Source: Planctomycetota bacterium
GTDB lineage: Bacteria > Planctomycetota > Phycisphaerae > Phycisphaerales > SM1A02
Reading direction: 5' to 3'
Assembly: GCA_027618565.1 (NCBI GenBank)
Contig: JAQCEQ010000019.1
Location: forward strand, 1 to 54,655
DNA: 54,655 nt
Position numbers and translations under genes: made by a program. This document shows, piece by piece, positions 144-13,392 of the stretch. The stretch's first letter is position 1. Each line of letters begins with the position of its first letter. The notes below the pieces were generated by a model. That model was not told where the DNA came from. It did no database searches and saw only the letters and a program-made list of their open reading frames with translations.

Positions 144-1541
144 TCACTTCCCCCGTCGATACCACTCCGTTGCAGTGGCCGCGAACTGGTCGGTGGTGAA
201 GCCAAAGTCTTCGGCAAGCGCTTGCTCCCACGGCTTGCCGCCCTTGACGGCTCGAATCCAGCGGCCAAAACGCTCCGGCTGCTGACGGATCATGAGTTCC
301 ACGACCGCGTACCCGACGGCGTAACCAACCGCGTTGGGGCCCGGCCACGATCGGTCCTGGTAACTCAGCCGCATGACCTGCGCCACATTGCCGCCAGAGC
401 GGATGAACTCGATGGCCTGAGGGCGGCGCATGCTGTCCACCTTGGACGATGGGAAGCTCACCGCAGCGATGTATTCCGAGAGTCCCTCATCCGCCCAGGC
501 GGGAAGCCGTGCAGCGGAGTGGTATCGGTGCGTGATGCCGTGGACCGCCTCGTGCAGCAGCACGGCATCGAACATGTCTTGGTCGTCGGACCAAAAGATA
601 TTGACGAAGACCTGCGGCCCGACCTGGTGGCAGAGCCCAACCACTCCGGGGGGTGTCATCTGCCCGAAGGCGGCGGCCTCCACAACTCGAAATGCTTCTT
701 CGTTGGGCTGGAGCAAGACCACGGCCTTTCCCCAGAAGAGGTTGAGCCCCGGCGGTATTCCAAACAACTCCAGCACCTTCTCGTACATCGCGTCAAGGCT
801 GCGCGCGCACTCTTGCACTGCCTCCGGGCGCGCTGCCGCGTAGAGCAGGAAGTATCGAGTCTCCACCAGCGTCGCGTTCACGCGGGCGGTCGCGCAAATC
901 TCCTCGGCGCGGCGCTTCATTGCCTCCACCGCCGCCTCATGTTCCGCGCGCGAGAGAATCGGCCACGGGGGCTGACCTCCCTGGTGGGCGGGGATTGATG
1001 AAGCCATCAGTTGGTGCCGGCGGATCCGCTCCGTGTGCTCCGCGTCGATGATGCGCTCTCGGGCGCGCGCCTTGGAAGCCTCAACCTCGCCCGCCAACGT
1101 GCGGTTTGACTTGAGGACTCGATCAAAGGCACGATCGGCCTCGTTGCCCTGGCCGGCCAGAGCCAGCAGCTCCGCCTTGAGGAGTTGGTCTTGCGGCTTC
1201 TTCTTGTCGTCGCCGATGAGTTTGTCGGCGAGCCGCTCAAGGTCATCCGGTTGGATCGACAGCCAGAGGACCGCGCTCGGCTCTGGTGGCGCGGCTACCG
1301 CGCCTTGGCCCTTCTTGGCGGAGAGCTGCACCGTGAACCCATCGACGCCGAACGCCGTTGCGCGTCCATCCAGCTTCGTGCCGTCGCGGAGGTCAGCGCG
1401 GATCGCGGTCGGCTTGTCAAGCGTCGTGGTTGCGCAGGCGGGGGTGGCCGGGGATCCCTGCATCGGCGCGAGCGCCGCCGCAGTCGGCGCAACCGTCGTC
1501 GCCACCAGCATCATCGAGAGGAGGGCGATGAGTGCTCGCAT
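144..1541 (-). CDS. Secreted HExxH zinc metallopeptidase (gluzincin-like)
   Basis: A 465-residue exported protein with an N-terminal signal peptide (about residues 1-25, hydrophobic with TAAALA at its end). Residues 330-334 are HEAVH, the HExxH zinc motif, followed by DEGLSEY with a probable third ligand Glu352. This spacing is typical of gluzincins such as the DUF1570-type peptidases common in planctomycetes. The middle (about 100-220) is helical and charged; the N-terminal 45-95 could be a small beta domain. The ATG start is supported by a TAGCCT element 6 bases upstream. The substrate is unknown; a periplasmic or surface location is inferred from the signal peptide. Confidence 0.75.
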   Translation of the reverse strand: MRALIALLSMMLVATTVAPTAAALAPMQGSPATPACATTTLDKPTAIRADLRDGTKLDGRATAFGVDGFTVQLSAKKGQGAVAAPPEPSAVLWLSIQPDDLERLADKLIGDDKKKPQDQLLKAELLALAGQGNEADRAFDRVLKSNRTLAGEVEASKARARERIIDAEHTERIRRHQLMASSIPAHQGGQPPWPILSRAEHEAAVEAMKRRAEEICATARVNATLVETRYFLLYAAARPEAVQECARSLDAMYEKVLELFGIPPGLNLFWGKAVVLLQPNEEAFRVVEAAAFGQMTPPGVVGLCHQVGPQVFVNIFWSDDQDMFDAVLLHEAVHGITHRYHSAARLPAWADEGLSEYIAAVSFPSSKVDSMRRPQAIEFIRSGGNVAQVMRLSYQDRSWPGPNAVGYAVGYAVVELMIRQQPERFGRWIRAVKGGKPWEQALAEDFGFTTDQFAATATEWYRRGK

Positions 1542-2876: not shown

Positions 2877-2905
2877 AGTCTATCCCCAAGGGCAAGCCCC
2901 GTCAA
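2877..2905 (-). promoter_or_regulatory. Promoter of tRNA-fMet
   Basis: On the minus strand TTGACG (2905-2900) is separated by exactly 17 bases from TAGACT (2882-2877), which lies 12 bases before the tRNA 5' end. It overlaps the last codons of the transporter gene upstream. The -10 has the same TANNNT form seen before many protein genes here. Confidence 0.7.
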
Positions 2906-4668
2906 CCCGCAGGGGATCGCGGGTTTTCGGGTCGCACTTCGTCCCAGATCCGGTGGTGGTTCGTCTCCTTGAGGAAGATGGACCCGATGATGAATGTCAT
3001 GGCCGCGACGGCGATCGGGTAGTAGAGCCCGGCGTCGATGTCTTCGGTCAGCGCGACGACGGAGAGCCCGATCACCGGCAGCAATCCTCCGAAGACGCCG
3101 TTGCCGATGTGGTACGGAAGCGAGAGCGCGGTGTACCGGATTCGTGCGGGGAACGCTTCGACGAGGTAGGCGGCGATCGGCCCGTAGACCATCGTCACCA
3201 GGACAAGCTGGAGGAAGATGAGCCCGGCGAGTTGCCACGCCGTGGCGCTCTGGATGAGTGCGCCGAACGTGTCGAACGCAAGGACCTCGGTCGTGGGGAC
3301 CATCTGCCCATCGATCATTGATTGCGGCGAGAGGTTGATCGCGCCGGTCACTGCGTTTCTTTGCGAGGTCACCGCGACAACGTTGGACCCTGCCACCGAT
3401 TGCATCGCGTGGTAGATCGGGAGGTAGCTCACGGCCGCGAGCAGGCAGCCAGCCATCATCAACCGCTTTCGTCCGATCCGGTCGCTGAGGCTTCCCATCA
3501 CCACGAAGAGCGGCATCCCCGCGAGCAGTGCGACAGCGATGATGCAGTTCGCAGTCGTCGCATTGACCTTCAGGATCGTCAAGAGATAGAAGAGCGCATA
3601 GAACTGCCCCGTGTACCAGATCACTCCCTGCCCCGCGGTTGCGCCGAAGAGGGAGATCAGGACCCGCTTGAGGTTGTCCCACTGCGTGAAGGCCTCGCGG
3701 AGTGGGTGCGCCGAGGTCATGCCCGCCTGCTTGATGTGCAAGAAGATCGGCGACTCGCGCATTCGCATCCGGATGTAGACGGAGACCACCAGAAGGGCGA
3801 TCGAGATGAGGAAGGGAAGCCTCCATCCCCAGGCCTTGAATGCGTCGGGGCCGACCGCATGCTGCACGAGCAGGATGACCACCAGCGACATGAACAGGCC
3901 GAGCGTGGCGGTGATCTGGATGAAGCTGGTGTAGAAGCCGCGCTTTCGGTCAGGCACATGCTCCGCGACGTAGACGGCAGCGCCGCCATACTCGCCGCCG
4001 AGGGCAAGTCCCTGCAGGACGCGGATCACGAGGAGCGCAATCGGCGCGGCGATTCCTATTGATTCGTAGGTCGGGAGGAGACCGATCAGGGCCGTCGCGC
4101 CTCCCATGATGACGAGCGTCACGAGGAAGGCGTACTTGCGCCCGACTCGATCGCCGATGCGGCCGAAGACGAGTGCCCCGAACGGACGCACGACAAACCC
4201 AACAGCGAAGGTTGACAGGTAGGCGATCAGGGCAAGCGAGTCATTCCCACTTGGGTAGAAGAGTGGCGAGATGACGGTCGCCAGGCTCCCGAAGATGTAG
4301 AAGTCGTACCACTCGATCATCGTGCCGACGCTCGACGCGCCGATCACCGACCAGATCTGGCGCTTGGGGAGTTCGTCACCTGTGGCGCCGGGGGCCGAAT
4401 CGCCAGTGGCGGCCGGGCGTCGTGGCATGACGCGACGCCAGAGCATCGAACCCGTCTCCTTTGCTCTCGCCAGCGACCGCCGGGCCCACTCAAACTCCAG
4501 CGCGAGGAGCGCGAGCCCACCAAGCATGAGCGGCACGCCCGGCCCTGGGGTGAAGAGGAGGAGGAACCCGATGCCGAGCAGGGTGAATCCCGCGATCGAT
4601 ATCCACACCCTCCGAAGGAGCCGTACGCTGGGGGAAGGGGTGTTGGGTGTGCGCGGCGGCGCATTCAT
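2902..4668 (-). CDS. MFS transporter (metabolite:H+ symporter type) with N-terminal PGPGW domain
   Basis: 588 residues. The first 80 or so residues form two hydrophobic helices around LLLFTPGPGVPLMLGG and EFEWARR, the signature of the small PGPGW membrane domain. From about residue 100 there is a 12-helix MFS carrier. GTMIEWYDFYIFG and GRIGDRVGRK place it in the MHS subfamily (proline/betaine, alpha-ketoglutarate and related proton symporters). A second copy of the loop motif, GSLSDRIGRKR, starts the C-terminal half. A large periplasmic loop rich in Asn/Gln/Val follows helix 8. The start at 4668 is supported by a TACGAT element 8 bases upstream. The substrate cannot be read from sequence. The fusion order is unusual; see findings. 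Confidence 0.85.
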   Translation of the reverse strand: MNAPPRTPNTPSPSVRLLRRVWISIAGFTLLGIGFLLLFTPGPGVPLMLGGLALLALEFEWARRSLARAKETGSMLWRRVMPRRPAATGDSAPGATGDELPKRQIWSVIGASSVGTMIEWYDFYIFGSLATVISPLFYPSGNDSLALIAYLSTFAVGFVVRPFGALVFGRIGDRVGRKYAFLVTLVIMGGATALIGLLPTYESIGIAAPIALLVIRVLQGLALGGEYGGAAVYVAEHVPDRKRGFYTSFIQITATLGLFMSLVVILLVQHAVGPDAFKAWGWRLPFLISIALLVVSVYIRMRMRESPIFLHIKQAGMTSAHPLREAFTQWDNLKRVLISLFGATAGQGVIWYTGQFYALFYLLTILKVNATTANCIIAVALLAGMPLFVVMGSLSDRIGRKRLMMAGCLLAAVSYLPIYHAMQSVAGSNVVAVTSQRNAVTGAINLSPQSMIDGQMVPTTEVLAFDTFGALIQSATAWQLAGLIFLQLVLVTMVYGPIAAYLVEAFPARIRYTALSLPYHIGNGVFGGLLPVIGLSVVALTEDIDAGLYYPIAVAAMTFIIGSIFLKETNHHRIWDEVRPENPRSPAG

Positions 4669-4730: not shown

Positions 4731-5687
4731 TCACCGATCCCGGTGCACTTGATGGCATGTCCTGCAGGACTCTTGGATGACCCCAAGCGCGGCGGCAGCG
4801 GCGCGCACTTCGGCATCGTGGATCCCGGCAACATCGATTCCCGCTCCGCCGTGCTCGACATCGTCTGCCATCGAAGCGCTCGTGAGAAACGCTTCCAGCG
4901 CCTGCGCCTCGCCAGCCAGCTCAAGCAACGCGAGTTCCACTCCCTCCGCGTGGCCCCGCCCCTGAGCGGCGCACAGCCGCAGCGCATCCGCGAACGCGCC
5001 CGCGTCGGCCGCCGCCGGAGGCTCGCCGCGCGTGATGGACGCGTGCATCGCATTGATCCGACTCTCCATCTCACCCATCAGTCGCACAAACTCCGCGGGC
5101 GGAACGGTGGTGTTCCAGGCAAGGGGCACGGCTGCGAGTGCGTCCTCCGTCTCCACCTGGAGCGCCTCTTGCTCCAGCGCATCCCGCCACAGTCCGGGGT
5201 ACCCCGGTGAGGTCCCTGCCAGTATGAGTGCGGCTTCCGCCTCGGCAACACTGGTGCCCAGGGCTCGCATCGCCGTCGCGGCGGCGGCCGGAGATCGATG
5301 TGCCCCGTGGTGACAATGAATGGCCAGGCTCCTGTTGCGCGCTCGCGACTCCAACGCAGCCCGTGAGATCGCCAGCGTCACGGCTTCCGGAACGCCGTCG
5401 TAGGAGAAGGGGAGGTGAAGCACCTTCAGCCCAGCGCGATTCGCTGCCTCGATGTCCGGCTCCGAGCCATCCACGCAGATGAGCGTGTCCACGCGGTGCT
5501 CCACCAGCCAGGCGCGGCAGGCATCGTCAGGCGCCCCGCAGCTCACGAAGGTGTCATCCAAGATCAGCGCGTTGCAGGGGCCGCGAACGGGCTCACCGAG
5601 ACCGGACCCATCCGAGGTCACAGGCCGACCGGCGCACGCAGCGAGCATCCAGGCCACCATCATCGCCTGCAGAAACCGCGTCGCCAT
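4731..5687 (-). CDS. Lipoprotein with dual-specificity phosphatase domain and C-terminal cytochrome c'-like haem motif
   Basis: 318 residues. The N-terminus MATRFLQAMMVAWMLAACAG is a lipoprotein signal with lipobox LAAC (Cys18). Residues 35-175 look like a dual-specificity/tyrosine phosphatase. The P-loop HCHHGAHRSP (124-133) has the C-X5-R signature (Cys125, Arg131), and Asp97 is a candidate general acid. Residues 190-318 are helical, and CRTCH (308-312) near the C-terminus is a CxxCH haem-c site placed as in cytochrome c'. Both parts lie in one uninterrupted frame. The long ORF extending further upstream is a shadow of ettA; the ATG at 5687 with TACGCT 6 bases upstream is the credible start. 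A periplasmic redox-linked phosphatase is inferred; the substrate is unknown. Confidence 0.75.
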   Translation of the reverse strand: MATRFLQAMMVAWMLAACAGRPVTSDGSGLGEPVRGPCNALILDDTFVSCGAPDDACRAWLVEHRVDTLICVDGSEPDIEAANRAGLKVLHLPFSYDGVPEAVTLAISRAALESRARNRSLAIHCHHGAHRSPAAAATAMRALGTSVAEAEAALILAGTSPGYPGLWRDALEQEALQVETEDALAAVPLAWNTTVPPAEFVRLMGEMESRINAMHASITRGEPPAAADAGAFADALRLCAAQGRGHAEGVELALLELAGEAQALEAFLTSASMADDVEHGGAGIDVAGIHDAEVRAAAAALGVIQESCRTCHQVHRDR

Positions 5688-9434: not shown

Positions 9435-10274
9435 CTACCCCGCGCTCGGAGCGCGGACGGCTCGCTTGTCGTCGCCTCGGCGGAGCTCCAGGACACGCCC
9501 ATTCATGCCGCCACCCTCATCTTCCAGGGCGTGGCAAAGCCTTGAAATCGCTTTGGAATCTGGAAACTGAGTCCGGAGGCGCCCGACCTTGTCCACGGCG
9601 CTCCCACCGAGCGCGCGGAAGAGCATCTTGTACGCATCCTTCATCGCGTCAATGTCCGTCTCGGAGTAGCCCAGCCGGCTCATCCCCACATGGTTGTAGC
9701 CGCGGATGGAAGCAGGGTTGCCTTCGCTGATCATGTACGGCGGGATATCCTTGGCACAACGTGACATGCCGCCGACGAATGAGCAGTAGCCGATGCGCAC
9801 GAAGTGGTGGACGCCGACGGCGCCACCGAGATTGACGTAGTCCTCCACCTGCACATGACCGGCCAGCATCACATTGTTGGCCAGGATCACATGATCGCCG
9901 ACGATGCAGTCGTGCGCCACGTGCGAGCACGCCATGCAGAGGTTGTGCGATCCGATCTTCGTGAGCCCACCGCCGTTGCCAGTGCCGCGATGAATGCTGC
10001 AGTACTCGCGCACTTGGTTGTAGTCCCCCATCTCCAGCCAGGTCGGCTCGCCGTGGTACTTGAGGTCCTGCGGGTCACCTCCCACCATCGCGTACGAGTG
10101 GATGACATTCCCGCGGCCCATCCGGGTCATCGACGCCACCTGCGAGTGGGCACGCAAGACGCAATCCTCGCCAATGGTCACGCGGGAGCCCACGACGCAG
10201 TAGGCGCCGACCTCGACGGACGAGGCCAACTCCGCGCTGGGATCAATGAGGGCCGTGGGGTGGATGCGGCTCAT
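9435..10274 (-). CDS. lpxA: Acyl-ACP--UDP-N-acetylglucosamine O-acyltransferase LpxA
   Basis: 279 residues of left-handed beta-helix hexapeptide repeats (IHPTALIDPSAEL, VEVGAYCVVGSRVTIGEDC) followed by a helical C-terminal domain. LAGHVQVEDY contains the catalytic His. It transfers the 3-hydroxyacyl chain from ACP to UDP-GlcNAc, the first step of lipid A synthesis, in the cytoplasm. The start MSRIHPTALI at 10274 matches the family; the ORF extension upstream lacks similarity. It lies 66 bases after lpxC-fabZ in the operon. Length is slightly above the E. coli enzyme (262). Confidence 0.93.
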   Translation of the reverse strand: MSRIHPTALIDPSAELASSVEVGAYCVVGSRVTIGEDCVLRAHSQVASMTRMGRGNVIHSYAMVGGDPQDLKYHGEPTWLEMGDYNQVREYCSIHRGTGNGGGLTKIGSHNLCMACSHVAHDCIVGDHVILANNVMLAGHVQVEDYVNLGGAVGVHHFVRIGYCSFVGGMSRCAKDIPPYMISEGNPASIRGYNHVGMSRLGYSETDIDAMKDAYKMLFRALGGSAVDKVGRLRTQFPDSKAISRLCHALEDEGGGMNGRVLELRRGDDKRAVRAPSAG

Positions 10275-10340
10275 GGGCAGGAGAATCGGGCGGGACTGGA
10301 ATCCCGTCGACGGCACAGGCTACCGCGGCGGGATGCGGAC

Positions 10341-11693
10341 TCAGGTGAAATCCGGGTCCACCATCATGAACCGAATGAGCGCCTCGGCGGAGGTCTTGTT
10401 TCCCACGCTGGCGCGGCACTGGACCGTCGCATGGCGGCTGGTGGCGCGGATGGTTTCCGCCTCCAGGATCAGCTGGTCGCCCGGCGTCACCGCCTTGCGA
10501 AGCTTGACATCGTCCATGCTGAGCAGGATGGCGACCTTGCCGGAATGCTCCAGCTGCTGGCTCAGCATGAGCCCCGCGAGCTGCGCCATCGCTTCCACGA
10601 TGAGCACGCCAGGCATGATCGGCGTGCCCGGATAGTGGCCGGGGAAGAATGGCTCGTTGATCGTGACATTCTTGACGCCGACGGCGCGTCGCCCTTGGTC
10701 GATCTCCAGCACGCGATCCACCAGGAGCATCGGGTACCGGTGCGGCATGAGGCGCGTGATGGCGCGCGCATCCAGCGCCTTGGCCTCGCTGAGGGCGACG
10801 GCGCGCGCGTCAAGGCGCATGCGCTGGCGGATCGCCTGTGCAAGGCGCCGGTTCATGTGGTGCCCGGAGCGATGGGCCAGCACCCGACAGGAGACGGCGC
10901 AGCCCGTCAGGTAAAGGTCGCCAATGAGGTCCAGCACCTTGTGCCGGACGGGCTCGTTCTCAAAGCGGAACGCGTTGTCGATCGGTCCGTCCTCGCCGAT
11001 CACCAGCATGTCGCGCGGGGTGAGGTGCCGACACATGCCCGCCGCCCACAGCGCCTCGGCCTCCTCGCGCAGGCTGTAGGTCCGCGCGGGCGCGACCTCC
11101 TTCATGTAGTCGCCCGAGCCCGTGTCGTAGCTCCACGCCTGCTTGCCGATGCGGTGGGCGTTCTCGCGGTAGTCCAGGTCAAAGACCACGCGCATCCCCA
11201 GCTCGTCGTGTGGAAGCGCGGCGATGGTTGCGCCGGGCTCGTCGATCGACACGGCCTCCTTCAGCTTGTAGACGCGGCGTTCCGCGTCCTGGCGTTCCAG
11301 GCCCGCCTCCATCATGGGCTCGGCGAACGGCAGCGCGCTCCCGTCACCGATGGGCAACTCGGGACCCCGGAGCTTGAGGACGGCGTTGTCGATGCGAAGT
11401 CCCGACAGCGCGCTGAGGCAATGCTCCACCGTCTCGATCGTCACCTCGCCCGAGCGCAGCGTCGTTCGGCGCGGCCGGCGCACGACATTCTCCGCCAGCG
11501 CCGGGATCGCGACAGGAGGATCCAGGTCCACGCGCTCGAAGACGATTCCAGAGTCGGGTTCGGCGGGGCAGATGACCAGTTCCGCATCCTGCCCGAGCAG
11601 CAAGCCCTTTCCGCGGATGACGCACTCGCGTTTCAGCGTCTGCTGGCGCGCGGTCGTGGACAGGGGACCGGTCGATGGAGCCATCGTGGTCAT
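10341..11693 (-). CDS. lpxC-fabZ: Bifunctional LpxC deacetylase / FabZ 3-hydroxyacyl-ACP dehydratase
   Basis: 450 residues, two enzymes in one chain. Residues 15-300 are LpxC, the zinc deacetylase that commits UDP-acyl-GlcNAc to lipid A; the zinc ligands are His91 (TVEHCLSAL), His251 and Asp255 (HKVLDLIGD), and His278 (SGHHMNRRL) is catalytic. Residues 305-450 are FabZ, the hot-dog dehydratase of fatty acid synthesis. His353 (FFPGHYPG) and Glu367 (VLIVEAMAQ) are its catalytic pair. The fusion is known in Bacteroidetes and planctomycetes and ties 3-hydroxyacyl-ACP use to lipid A flux. The ATG overlaps the lpxD stop (ATGA). Confidence 0.94.
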
Positions 11694-12775
11694 GGGACAG
11701 CGGAGCCCGCGATGGCGCTCGCGGATTCCCCATCGAGGCTCTTGAGGAGCCGCTGGATCTGCGGCGCGTGGTCGCCCAGGGTCTTGAGAATGCTCGCTTG
11801 GCGAAGGAAGTCGCGGACGTCCTGGGCCGGCGTCCCGGCGACACGCGCGCGCGGGGGCACATCCCGCATGATCCCGCTCTTGCCCCCGATCTGGGCGCCG
11901 GCGCCGATGGTCAGGTGGTCGGCAATGCCGACGCCACCACCCATCATCACACCATCGCCGACCGTGCAGCTCCCGGCAATGCCGGTGAGCCCCGAGATGG
12001 CGCAGTGCTTGCCGATCACCACATTGTGCCCGATCTGGCACAGGTTGTCGATCTTCGTGCCTTGGCCGATGCGAGTCGCACCGGTCTTGGCCCGGTCAAT
12101 GGTGGTGTTGGCACCGATCTCGACGGCATCCTCCAGGACGACGGTGCCGATGTGCGGGATTCGCGTGAGCCCGCGACCGGCGAGTGGACGGTACCCAAAA
12201 CCCTCTTCCCCGATCACCGCACCGGGCCCAATGACGCAGGAGTTCCCGACGATGACCCGGTCGCCGATGATGCAGCGCGCGCCGAGCGTCGTGCCATGGC
12301 CGATGGACGCGCCGGCACCCACGCACGCACCGGCGTGGATGACGCAGGACGCCGCGACCGTGGCGCGTTCCCCGATGTGCACCAGCGGGCCGACGCGCGT
12401 GGACGCATCGACCCGTGCCCCCGAGTCCACGACCGCCGAGGCATGGATGCCGATCGATGGAAGAACTGGTGGATGTGCGAATGCCGTGAAGAGCGCGATC
12501 GATGCCACTTCCGCGTCGGGCACCATGATGAGTGCGCGCGGCCCGTTCGCCGACTCCTGCACGCCGTCCGGGAGCGCGATCCCCCTGGTTACGACGGCGA
12601 CGCGCGTCAGGGAGCTGGCCAGAGACACTCCGTAGGCCTTGGTGTGGACCAAGACGGCATCGGTGGATGCGGCTTCGACGACGGTGGCGAGGCCCGTGAC
12701 GACAAGGTCATCCGGGCCCTCGAGTTCACCATCGAGGAGTTCACGGATGGCACCGCTCGTCATCGAGGGTGGCAT
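11690..12775 (-). CDS. lpxD: UDP-3-O-acylglucosamine N-acyltransferase LpxD
   Basis: 361 residues. A small N-terminal uridine-binding domain (about 1-110) precedes a long left-handed beta-helix of hexapeptide repeats ([40 protein letters not shown]). [13 protein letters not shown] includes the family's catalytic His region. It adds the N-linked 3-hydroxyacyl chain to the product of LpxC. The start codon overlaps the ompH stop (TGATG); an internal ATG at 12763 is an alternative. Genes before and after follow the classic outer membrane order. Confidence 0.93.
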
Positions 12776-13392
12776 CAGCCGCCGGCCCGGGCCTTGAGTT
12801 CGGCGTTGACGCGCTGCGTGAGGAGATCCGTGATGTCCAGGGAGGCGTTGGCGTAGAGCATGCGGCGGCCGCTCGCCTGCTCCATCGTCTGGGCGAGGTC
12901 GCCGCTGCGGATGGCCGGGGCTGCGTCATCGACGAACACGATGTCGATGTTCTGCTCCTCGGCCAGCGTGGCCGCGACGCCCTTCACCATCGCGTACAGC
13001 TCGCGCATGGCGGTGGACTTCTCCGCATCCATCTTGATCTCGGCAAAGCCCTCCAGCGCCCGCAACTCGCCGGTCTTGGCCAGTGCCGCCTTCGCTGCTG
13101 CGTTGAAGGTGTCGGTCCCGGGCGCGAAGCTCTCCAAGTCGTCCTGGAGTTCCTTGAGTTCCGCCTGGACCTTGTCCAGGCGCCCGGCCAGGTCGGCCTG
13201 AAGTCGCACGCGGCGGGCCTCAATCGCCTGGCTGGCGTCGATGTTGTCCCACAGCCGCTCGCTGTTGACGGTCGCGATCACGGCGGGTTGCGAGGGCACG
13301 ACTGCAGCGATCGCCGCCAGCCCGGCGAGGCACAGGATCGCCACGCGCACAGTCGTCAGGAGTTCACGCGTCAGGGGTCTCGTGGCCTTCAC
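12775..13392 (-). CDS. OmpH/Skp family periplasmic chaperone
   Basis: 205 residues. A hydrophobic N-terminal segment (residues 15-33) serves as signal peptide or anchor. A long alpha-helical hairpin (60-135, [20 protein letters not shown]) and a small beta base follow, the Skp jellyfish architecture that binds unfolded outer membrane proteins. The GTG start overlaps the previous stop (GTGA). It is the second of two tandem Skp-like genes and the more canonical ([18 protein letters not shown] near the C-terminus). It lies between bamA and lpxD as in many Gram-negative bacteria. Confidence 0.85.

Follow-up and report, generated by a model that had tools for sequence, protein, structure and literature searches.

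The stretch of DNA analysed here (the window) is 54,655 nucleotides long and comes from contig JAQCEQ010000019.1 of a planctomycete. On its minus strand lies a gene whose predicted product joins an exported phosphatase of the dual-specificity (DSP) type to a class II cytochrome c. The features of this gene, with the evidence for each, are as follows.

4731..5687, minus: whole gene, predicted exported DSP-phosphatase/class II cytochrome c fusion, 318 amino acids plus stop (relatives)
5634..5687, minus: predicted signal peptide with lipobox LAAC, residues 1-18; Cys18 is the predicted lipid-bearing residue (sequence)
5133..5582, minus: dual-specificity phosphatase domain, residues 36-185 (profile and structure comparison)
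5397..5399, minus: Asp97, at the position of the TpbA general acid Asp105 (alignment)
5295..5318, minus: catalytic loop HCHHGAHR, residues 124-131, with putative nucleophile Cys125 and with Arg131 (sequence, conservation)
4743..5093, minus: four-helix haem domain, residues 199-315 (model, profile and structure comparison)
5076..5078, minus: Met204, predicted sixth haem ligand (conservation; structural position of b562 Met7)
4752..4766, minus: haem-attachment motif CRTCH, residues 308-312; His312 is the predicted proximal ligand (conservation)

The frame translates without an internal stop. An export signal is evident in the predicted protein, where the lipobox LAAC (residues 15-18) is preceded by a hydrophobic stretch; the motif HCHHGAHRSP occupies residues 124-133, and CRTCH ends six residues short of the C terminus. 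Judged by their translations, the neighbours are a transporter of the MFS type, which lies downstream (about 2902-4668) in the same orientation, and an ABC-F-type ATPase, which is divergently oriented (from 5727). Against Pfam, both halves of the window protein score under the cut-offs (PTP-NADK, E 0.011, for the phosphatase half; Cytochrom_C_2, E 0.11 and 13.9 bits against a cut-off of 26.5, for the haem half), and an NCBIfam scan of the protein gave no match. AlphaFold2 modelled the whole chain with a pLDDT of 88.9 and a pTM of 0.80, placing a helix at residues 2-16 and a low-confidence stretch at 12-28, in the signal peptide region. In comparison with the congener L002, the phosphatase part has a dN/dS of 0.18, and the linker with the haem part one of 0.28; by this measure, both halves are under purifying selection. 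Because relatives are widespread, the motifs are kept, dN/dS is low and the chain is modelled confidently, we conclude that this is not a chance frame.

The phosphatase half

The best sequence and Foldseek match of the phosphatase half is TpbA (PA3885), a periplasmic protein of Pseudomonas aeruginosa which, like the window protein, combines an exported DSP fold with a CX5R loop and an Asp in the general-acid loop. The profile search matched TpbA at E 9.9e-13 and 6.7e-12, and Foldseek placed it first for the predicted model (E 4.8e-06); with VIA, the same model gave a Z of 17.7 for DUSP23 (rmsd 2.2, 139 residues aligned) and of 15.5 for TpbA. The two proteins differ in that TpbA is without a haem domain and has the loop HCKHGNNR, where most members of the present family have HCHHGKHR. 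A second protein of interest is PFA-DSP1 (At1g05000) of Arabidopsis, which has inositol-pyrophosphate activity. Its loop, CxxGKHR, is common to most family members, the window protein having GAHR instead, and its solved chain of 151 residues is without a haem domain.

Conservation was assessed in 138 non-identical sequences, namely the window protein and the 137 left from 155 other loci; 70 of these rows came from a pattern scan keyed on the catalytic loop (described below) and the other 68 did not. Cys125, Gly128, Arg131, His91 and Pro93 are present in all 138, as is the spacing of five residues between Cys125 and Arg131, which gives the HCX5R loop seen in the window. Position 97, aligned with the residue proposed as the general acid of TpbA (Asp105, according to an excerpt of PMC4409338), is Asp in 95 sequences, the window protein among them, Asn in 24 and another residue in 19. 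At position 129 the window protein has Ala, as opposed to Lys or Arg in 118 of the 138 (Lys in 94). Model and alignments together establish, at the level of prediction, a PTP/DSP fold with a CX5R loop and a candidate general acid.

Two minor observations belong to this half. Five histidines close to the catalytic Cys (window 5295-5417, residues 91-131) are nearly invariant, with His91, 124, 126, 127 and 130 present in 138, 137, 136, 134 and 133 of the 138 sequences; this is, to our knowledge, unusual and may mark a metal or phosphate site. The window protein also contains four extra cysteines, at residues 38, 50, 57 and 71 (window 5475-5576), which could form disulfides; those at 50, 57 and 71 appear by eye to be common to L002.

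The haem half

Met204 is present in all 138 sequences of the conservation set and in 135 of 135 sequences found by profile only. Cys308, Cys311 and His312 occur in each of the 137 sequences that reach them, and Arg316 in 136 of the 137. Across 131 haem domains with a mean column identity of 28%, the only invariant columns are M204, C308, C311 and H312. In the whole-chain model, helices follow the phosphatase domain at residues 199-219, 226-242, 250-278 and 286-315, and the C-terminal part modelled alone by AlphaFold2 again forms four helices, with a pLDDT of 91.0. A four-helix domain with a CxxCH motif and an invariant Met is therefore established as far as modelling and alignment can do so.

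A profile search of the PDB with the haem half returned cytochrome c' (E 2.1e-07) and b562 (E 2.9e-05), and the host genome encodes a c-type cytochrome assembly protein (PF01578). Foldseek gave no match to the haem domain under E 0.001, its best being a c-type b562 at E 0.048, and VIA gave Z scores of 12.5 for Kusta0087/Kusta0088 and 11.6-12.2 for b562, a weak level for helical bundles. We assign the family to the class II c-type cytochromes because four relatives (L017, L062, L122 and L146) pass the Pfam Cytochrom_C_2 cut-off, though the window protein does not.

The position of Met204 bears on the kind of haem to be expected. VIA aligned model residues 12-130 to b562 1-106 and model residues 12-132 to Kusta0087 26-130. 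If the ends of these ranges are ungapped, model Met18 (Met204 of the protein) falls on b562 Met7 and on Kusta0087 Cys32, and model His126 (His312) falls on b562 His102; we take Met7 and His102 to be the haem ligands of b562. The HMM alignment to b562 conflicts with the structural one, placing M204 three residues before Met7, in helix A. Because M204 is invariant and lies structurally at the sixth-ligand position of b562, we favour a His/Met-ligated, low-spin haem; the domain is probably a redox-type cytochrome in the manner of c556, and not a cytochrome c' that binds gas.

Cytochromes c', c556 and b562 resemble the haem half in their four-helix bundle and in a CxxCH near the C terminus that is followed by Arg, and b562 also has a Met in helix A, as has c556. 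The class II c-type cytochromes known to us have a single domain and either carry electrons or bind gases, whereas the haem half is fused to a phosphatase. In Kusta0087/Kusta0088 of Kuenenia stuttgartiensis, the class II fold is again found in a planctomycete; these are two small cytochromes in a complex, without a phosphatase, and with Cys32 where the present family has Met204. We take this complex to be NaxLS, in which Cys32 presumably serves in ligation, the structure entries naming C32 mutants; NaxLS is reportedly a nitric oxide-binding cytochrome c complex.

The first-pass annotation of this DNA had described the product as a lipoprotein joining a complete dual-specificity phosphatase loop to a C-terminal CxxCH, and had looked to structure prediction for a four-helix bundle around that motif. 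The predicted lipid-bearing Cys18, the TpbA-like fold predicted around the loop, the placing of CRTCH in a class II (c'/b562-type) domain and the confidently modelled helices all agree with that description; the C-terminal part is predicted to be helical, and in the conservation set no sequence that reaches the motif lacks it. The annotation's further suggestion, a gas-binding haem as in cytochrome c', fares less well, since the invariant Met204 at the b562 sixth-ligand position favours a His/Met haem of the redox type.

Distribution, split genes and further fusions

A search with the whole protein in 101 genomes (its own and those of relatives) matched 46, its own included. Among the 46 loci extracted, HC-X5-R is present in 45, the exception (L046) having TCETGRDR, in which Cys and Arg are kept and His is lost; the C-terminal CxxCH is likewise present in 45, the exception (L011) being cut by a contig end. 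When a profile built from these 46 rows was run on a sample of 392 genomes of the phylum, 265 gave a match at E <= 0.001, and those of the weaker matches that were read were phosphatase-only. At E <= 1e-50 there were 135 matches, in 134 of the 392 genomes, and all 135 were read. Each has the phosphatase loop (with His or Thr before Cys) and the Met, and 132, from 131 genomes, carry both the loop and CxxCH, which bears out the expectation of the first-pass annotation that the same architecture would be found in other genomes. In two of the three exceptions (L202 in G236 and L203 in G304) the sequence ends with its contig, and in the third (L201 in G285) the motif is lost within a 3.5 kb contig.

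The pattern HCHHGx[HN]R[SGA] was also scanned over species genomes. A relative was encoded in at least 454 of at least 593 stretches, from which 80 loci were kept, and in all 80 a C-terminal CxxCH is followed by Arg. Conservation of the loop in these loci is not independent evidence because the loop was the search pattern; that of CxxCH and Met is independent. A tree of 71 rows (the window protein and 70 of these loci, the remainder being identical to rows already included) holds, by record title, 52 sequences from Planctomycetota, 11 from Verrucomicrobiota, one from Lentisphaerota and seven without a group, so that the two halves are co-conserved across phyla as read from predicted proteins. 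The window protein is divergent, with an end branch of 2.83 in the tree without its congener L002. Searches with PF01322 found no match in the window's own genome, where the controls were silent too, so that this is no evidence of absence; across the phylum (50 of 119 genomes), again with silent controls, they returned 30 loci. Of 23 frames from that search with a C-terminal haem motif, 19 have the phosphatase loop and four do not.

Export is common to the family generally, as judged from predicted N termini: a simple pattern finds a lipobox-like motif in 69 of the 138 conservation-set sequences, nine are cut or start very near the domain, and most of the remaining 60 start, by eye, with a hydrophobic leader. 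According to record titles, the family is carried by Rhodopirellula baltica (L149) and Botrimarina hoheduenensis (L098), among others. Two cultured planctomycetes, Aquisphaera giovannonii and Planctomyces sp. SH-PL62, have copies on plasmids, both with Met and CxxCH; the annotations of these copies, 'dual specificity protein phosphatase' and 'hypothetical protein', overlook the haem half. One plasmid-borne copy (L220, on pPL62-1) has genes for cytochrome c oxidase subunits and for a DUF3365 protein nearby.

The two halves also occur as separate, adjacent genes. We examined the surroundings of 15 phosphatase-only relatives (L204-L218), and in the two closest (L204 and L205) a class II cytochrome gene adjoins the phosphatase gene. 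L204 has a gene for a phosphatase lipoprotein at 411-1064 (plus stop) and, after a gap of 83 bases, one for a class II cytochrome lipoprotein at 1151-1579; in L205, a GTG that shares bases with the stop codon of the first gene (GTGA) can serve as the start of the second. The halves of both pairs were identified by Pfam and profile comparison (hhalign 96.5% and 92.7%), the cytochromes being under the Pfam cut-off, and the second gene of the split pairs matches the haem profile. In the other 13, which are more distant, there was no cytochrome gene beside the phosphatase gene within the stretches examined. Split but adjacent genes of this kind are good evidence, at the level of gene arrangement, that the two domains are functionally coupled.

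Comparison of neighbourhoods at 80 loci revealed no conserved neighbour pointing to a substrate or a redox partner. The recurring groups were the gene itself (80 loci), a frame that is its antisense shadow (58 loci; the overlap was checked by coordinates in one row), an ABC-type ATPase (14), a frame on the same strand, overlapping the gene in L130 (9), and others at six loci or fewer. Upstream extensions of at least 140 residues were seen in 36 open frames, a few of which had been fetched twice and one of which was the window's own. Twenty of the 36 were scanned in Pfam, and 15 and a further 12 frames were inspected by eye. Long N-terminal extensions had been candidates for further fusions; visual inspection suggests that most are open by chance, the DNA being GC-rich, and contain a signal peptide internally. 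A glutathione peroxidase domain does precede the pair in L007 and L021 (Pfam GSHPx, E 1.9e-39 and 9e-38), and L005 and L023 have a similar fusion by eye, which suggests a peroxide or thiol link. Three single cases come from unnamed or metagenome-assembled genomes. An alkaline phosphatase domain (Pfam E 1.5e-41, the match ending at profile position 319 of 423) is in frame with the pair at L122:2934-5525; at L035:2-2272 the pair lies in frame behind a sodium-nucleoside transporter; and at L046:1182-3173 it lies in frame behind a sodium/calcium exchanger, with the phosphatase loop degraded and the haem motif kept.

Function and competing readings

The reading that we prefer, although we put it at slightly less than an even chance, is that the window gene encodes a TpbA-like extracytoplasmic Cys-phosphatase, probably membrane-tethered, that is coupled to the redox state of the His/Met class II cytochrome fused to it. 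Cys125 would hydrolyse an extracytoplasmic phospho-substrate, whether protein or small molecule, and the haem would trade electrons with the periplasmic c-type pool. The state of the phosphatase would depend on that exchange: in the simplest case Cys125 would be kept reduced, and in another the interface of the two domains would change upon oxidation. Dephosphorylation would then track the redox state of the envelope, in the direction of coupling that we infer.

Fusion of the two domains might, on the other hand, serve co-localization only, with a scavenging phosphatase and an electron carrier working independently on one tether. The unconserved gene neighbourhood fits this idea, and the single fusions to an alkaline phosphatase (L122) and a sodium-nucleoside transporter (L035) hint at organophosphate use. 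However, of the 392 genomes of the phylum, 131 have the pair, which is also found in other phyla and as adjacent separate genes, and this retention exceeds what an accidental fusion would predict, so we regard independent functions as unlikely. A regulatory role of another sort would have NO (or CO) displace Met204 on a sensor haem, the resulting conformational change switching the phosphatase. The class II fold, and the fact that VIA ranks Kusta0087/Kusta0088 first for the haem domain (Z 12.5), speak for such gas regulation; yet that match is tied with the b562 rows, and an invariant Met at the sixth position predicts a closed, six-coordinate haem, which makes gas regulation rather unlikely in our estimation.

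The chemistry of the Cys domain can also be questioned. The DUF442 domain of Blh, which is related to the phosphatase half in profile searches, has a PTP fold yet is a sulfur transferase, and it is fused to a dioxygenase, not a cytochrome, according to an excerpt of PMC5823870. By analogy, the present Cys domain might be a persulfide or sulfur transferase from which the cytochrome takes electrons. Of 46 members, 27 give a BLH_phosphatase (DUF442) match at E <= 1, the DUF442 structure 3gxg is matched at E 2e-09, and the glutathione-peroxidase fusions in L007 and L021 would suit thiol chemistry. Against this, the loop of 3gxg is one residue shorter between Cys and Arg (in an alignment with this one structure), whereas the five-residue spacing is fixed here; TpbA scores above DUF442; and most of the conservation set has Asp at the phosphatase general-acid position. 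We therefore consider sulfur chemistry improbable. More improbable still, in our view, is a pseudo-phosphatase whose loop only senses a phosphate ligand or a metal, by way of its many histidines, and reports to the haem or to a partner. The near-invariance of the five histidines, a general acid that is not fixed and the degraded loop of L046 beside an intact haem motif are in its favour. Cys125 and Arg131 are nevertheless universal in the conservation set, and although the loop was the search key for 70 of those rows, it is kept in the other 68 and in the 135 profile rows, all of which were found without that key.

Returning to the redox-linked phosphatase, we would more tentatively extend it, as a conjecture likelier to fail than to hold, to a family of haem-regulated, redox-gated extracytoplasmic phosphatases in Planctomycetota and Verrucomicrobiota, in which the cytochrome controls or protects the catalytic cysteine. 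Oxidation readily affects Cys-dependent phosphatases, and little is understood of how they function outside the reducing cytoplasm. If the conjecture is true, respiration would be tied directly to dephosphorylation in the envelope; a fusion kept so widely would, in a large group of environmental bacteria, wire electron transport to phosphate signalling (or scavenging) at the envelope. Both domains are of known kinds; what seems new is their fusion, its spread and its split form. We found no description of these in the open-licence PMC literature, which is in line with the first-pass remark that no protein with this arrangement is known to have been described, and the limits of that literature make the absence weak evidence.

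Elsewhere in the window, at 9435-13392 on the minus strand, a lipid A gene cluster was recognized by eye, with the following members.

12775-13392, minus: OmpH/Skp-like protein (by eye)
11690-12775, minus: LpxD (by eye)
10341-12041, minus: LpxC-FabZ fusion (by eye)
9435-10316, minus: LpxA (by eye)

This cluster is consistent with a diderm envelope.
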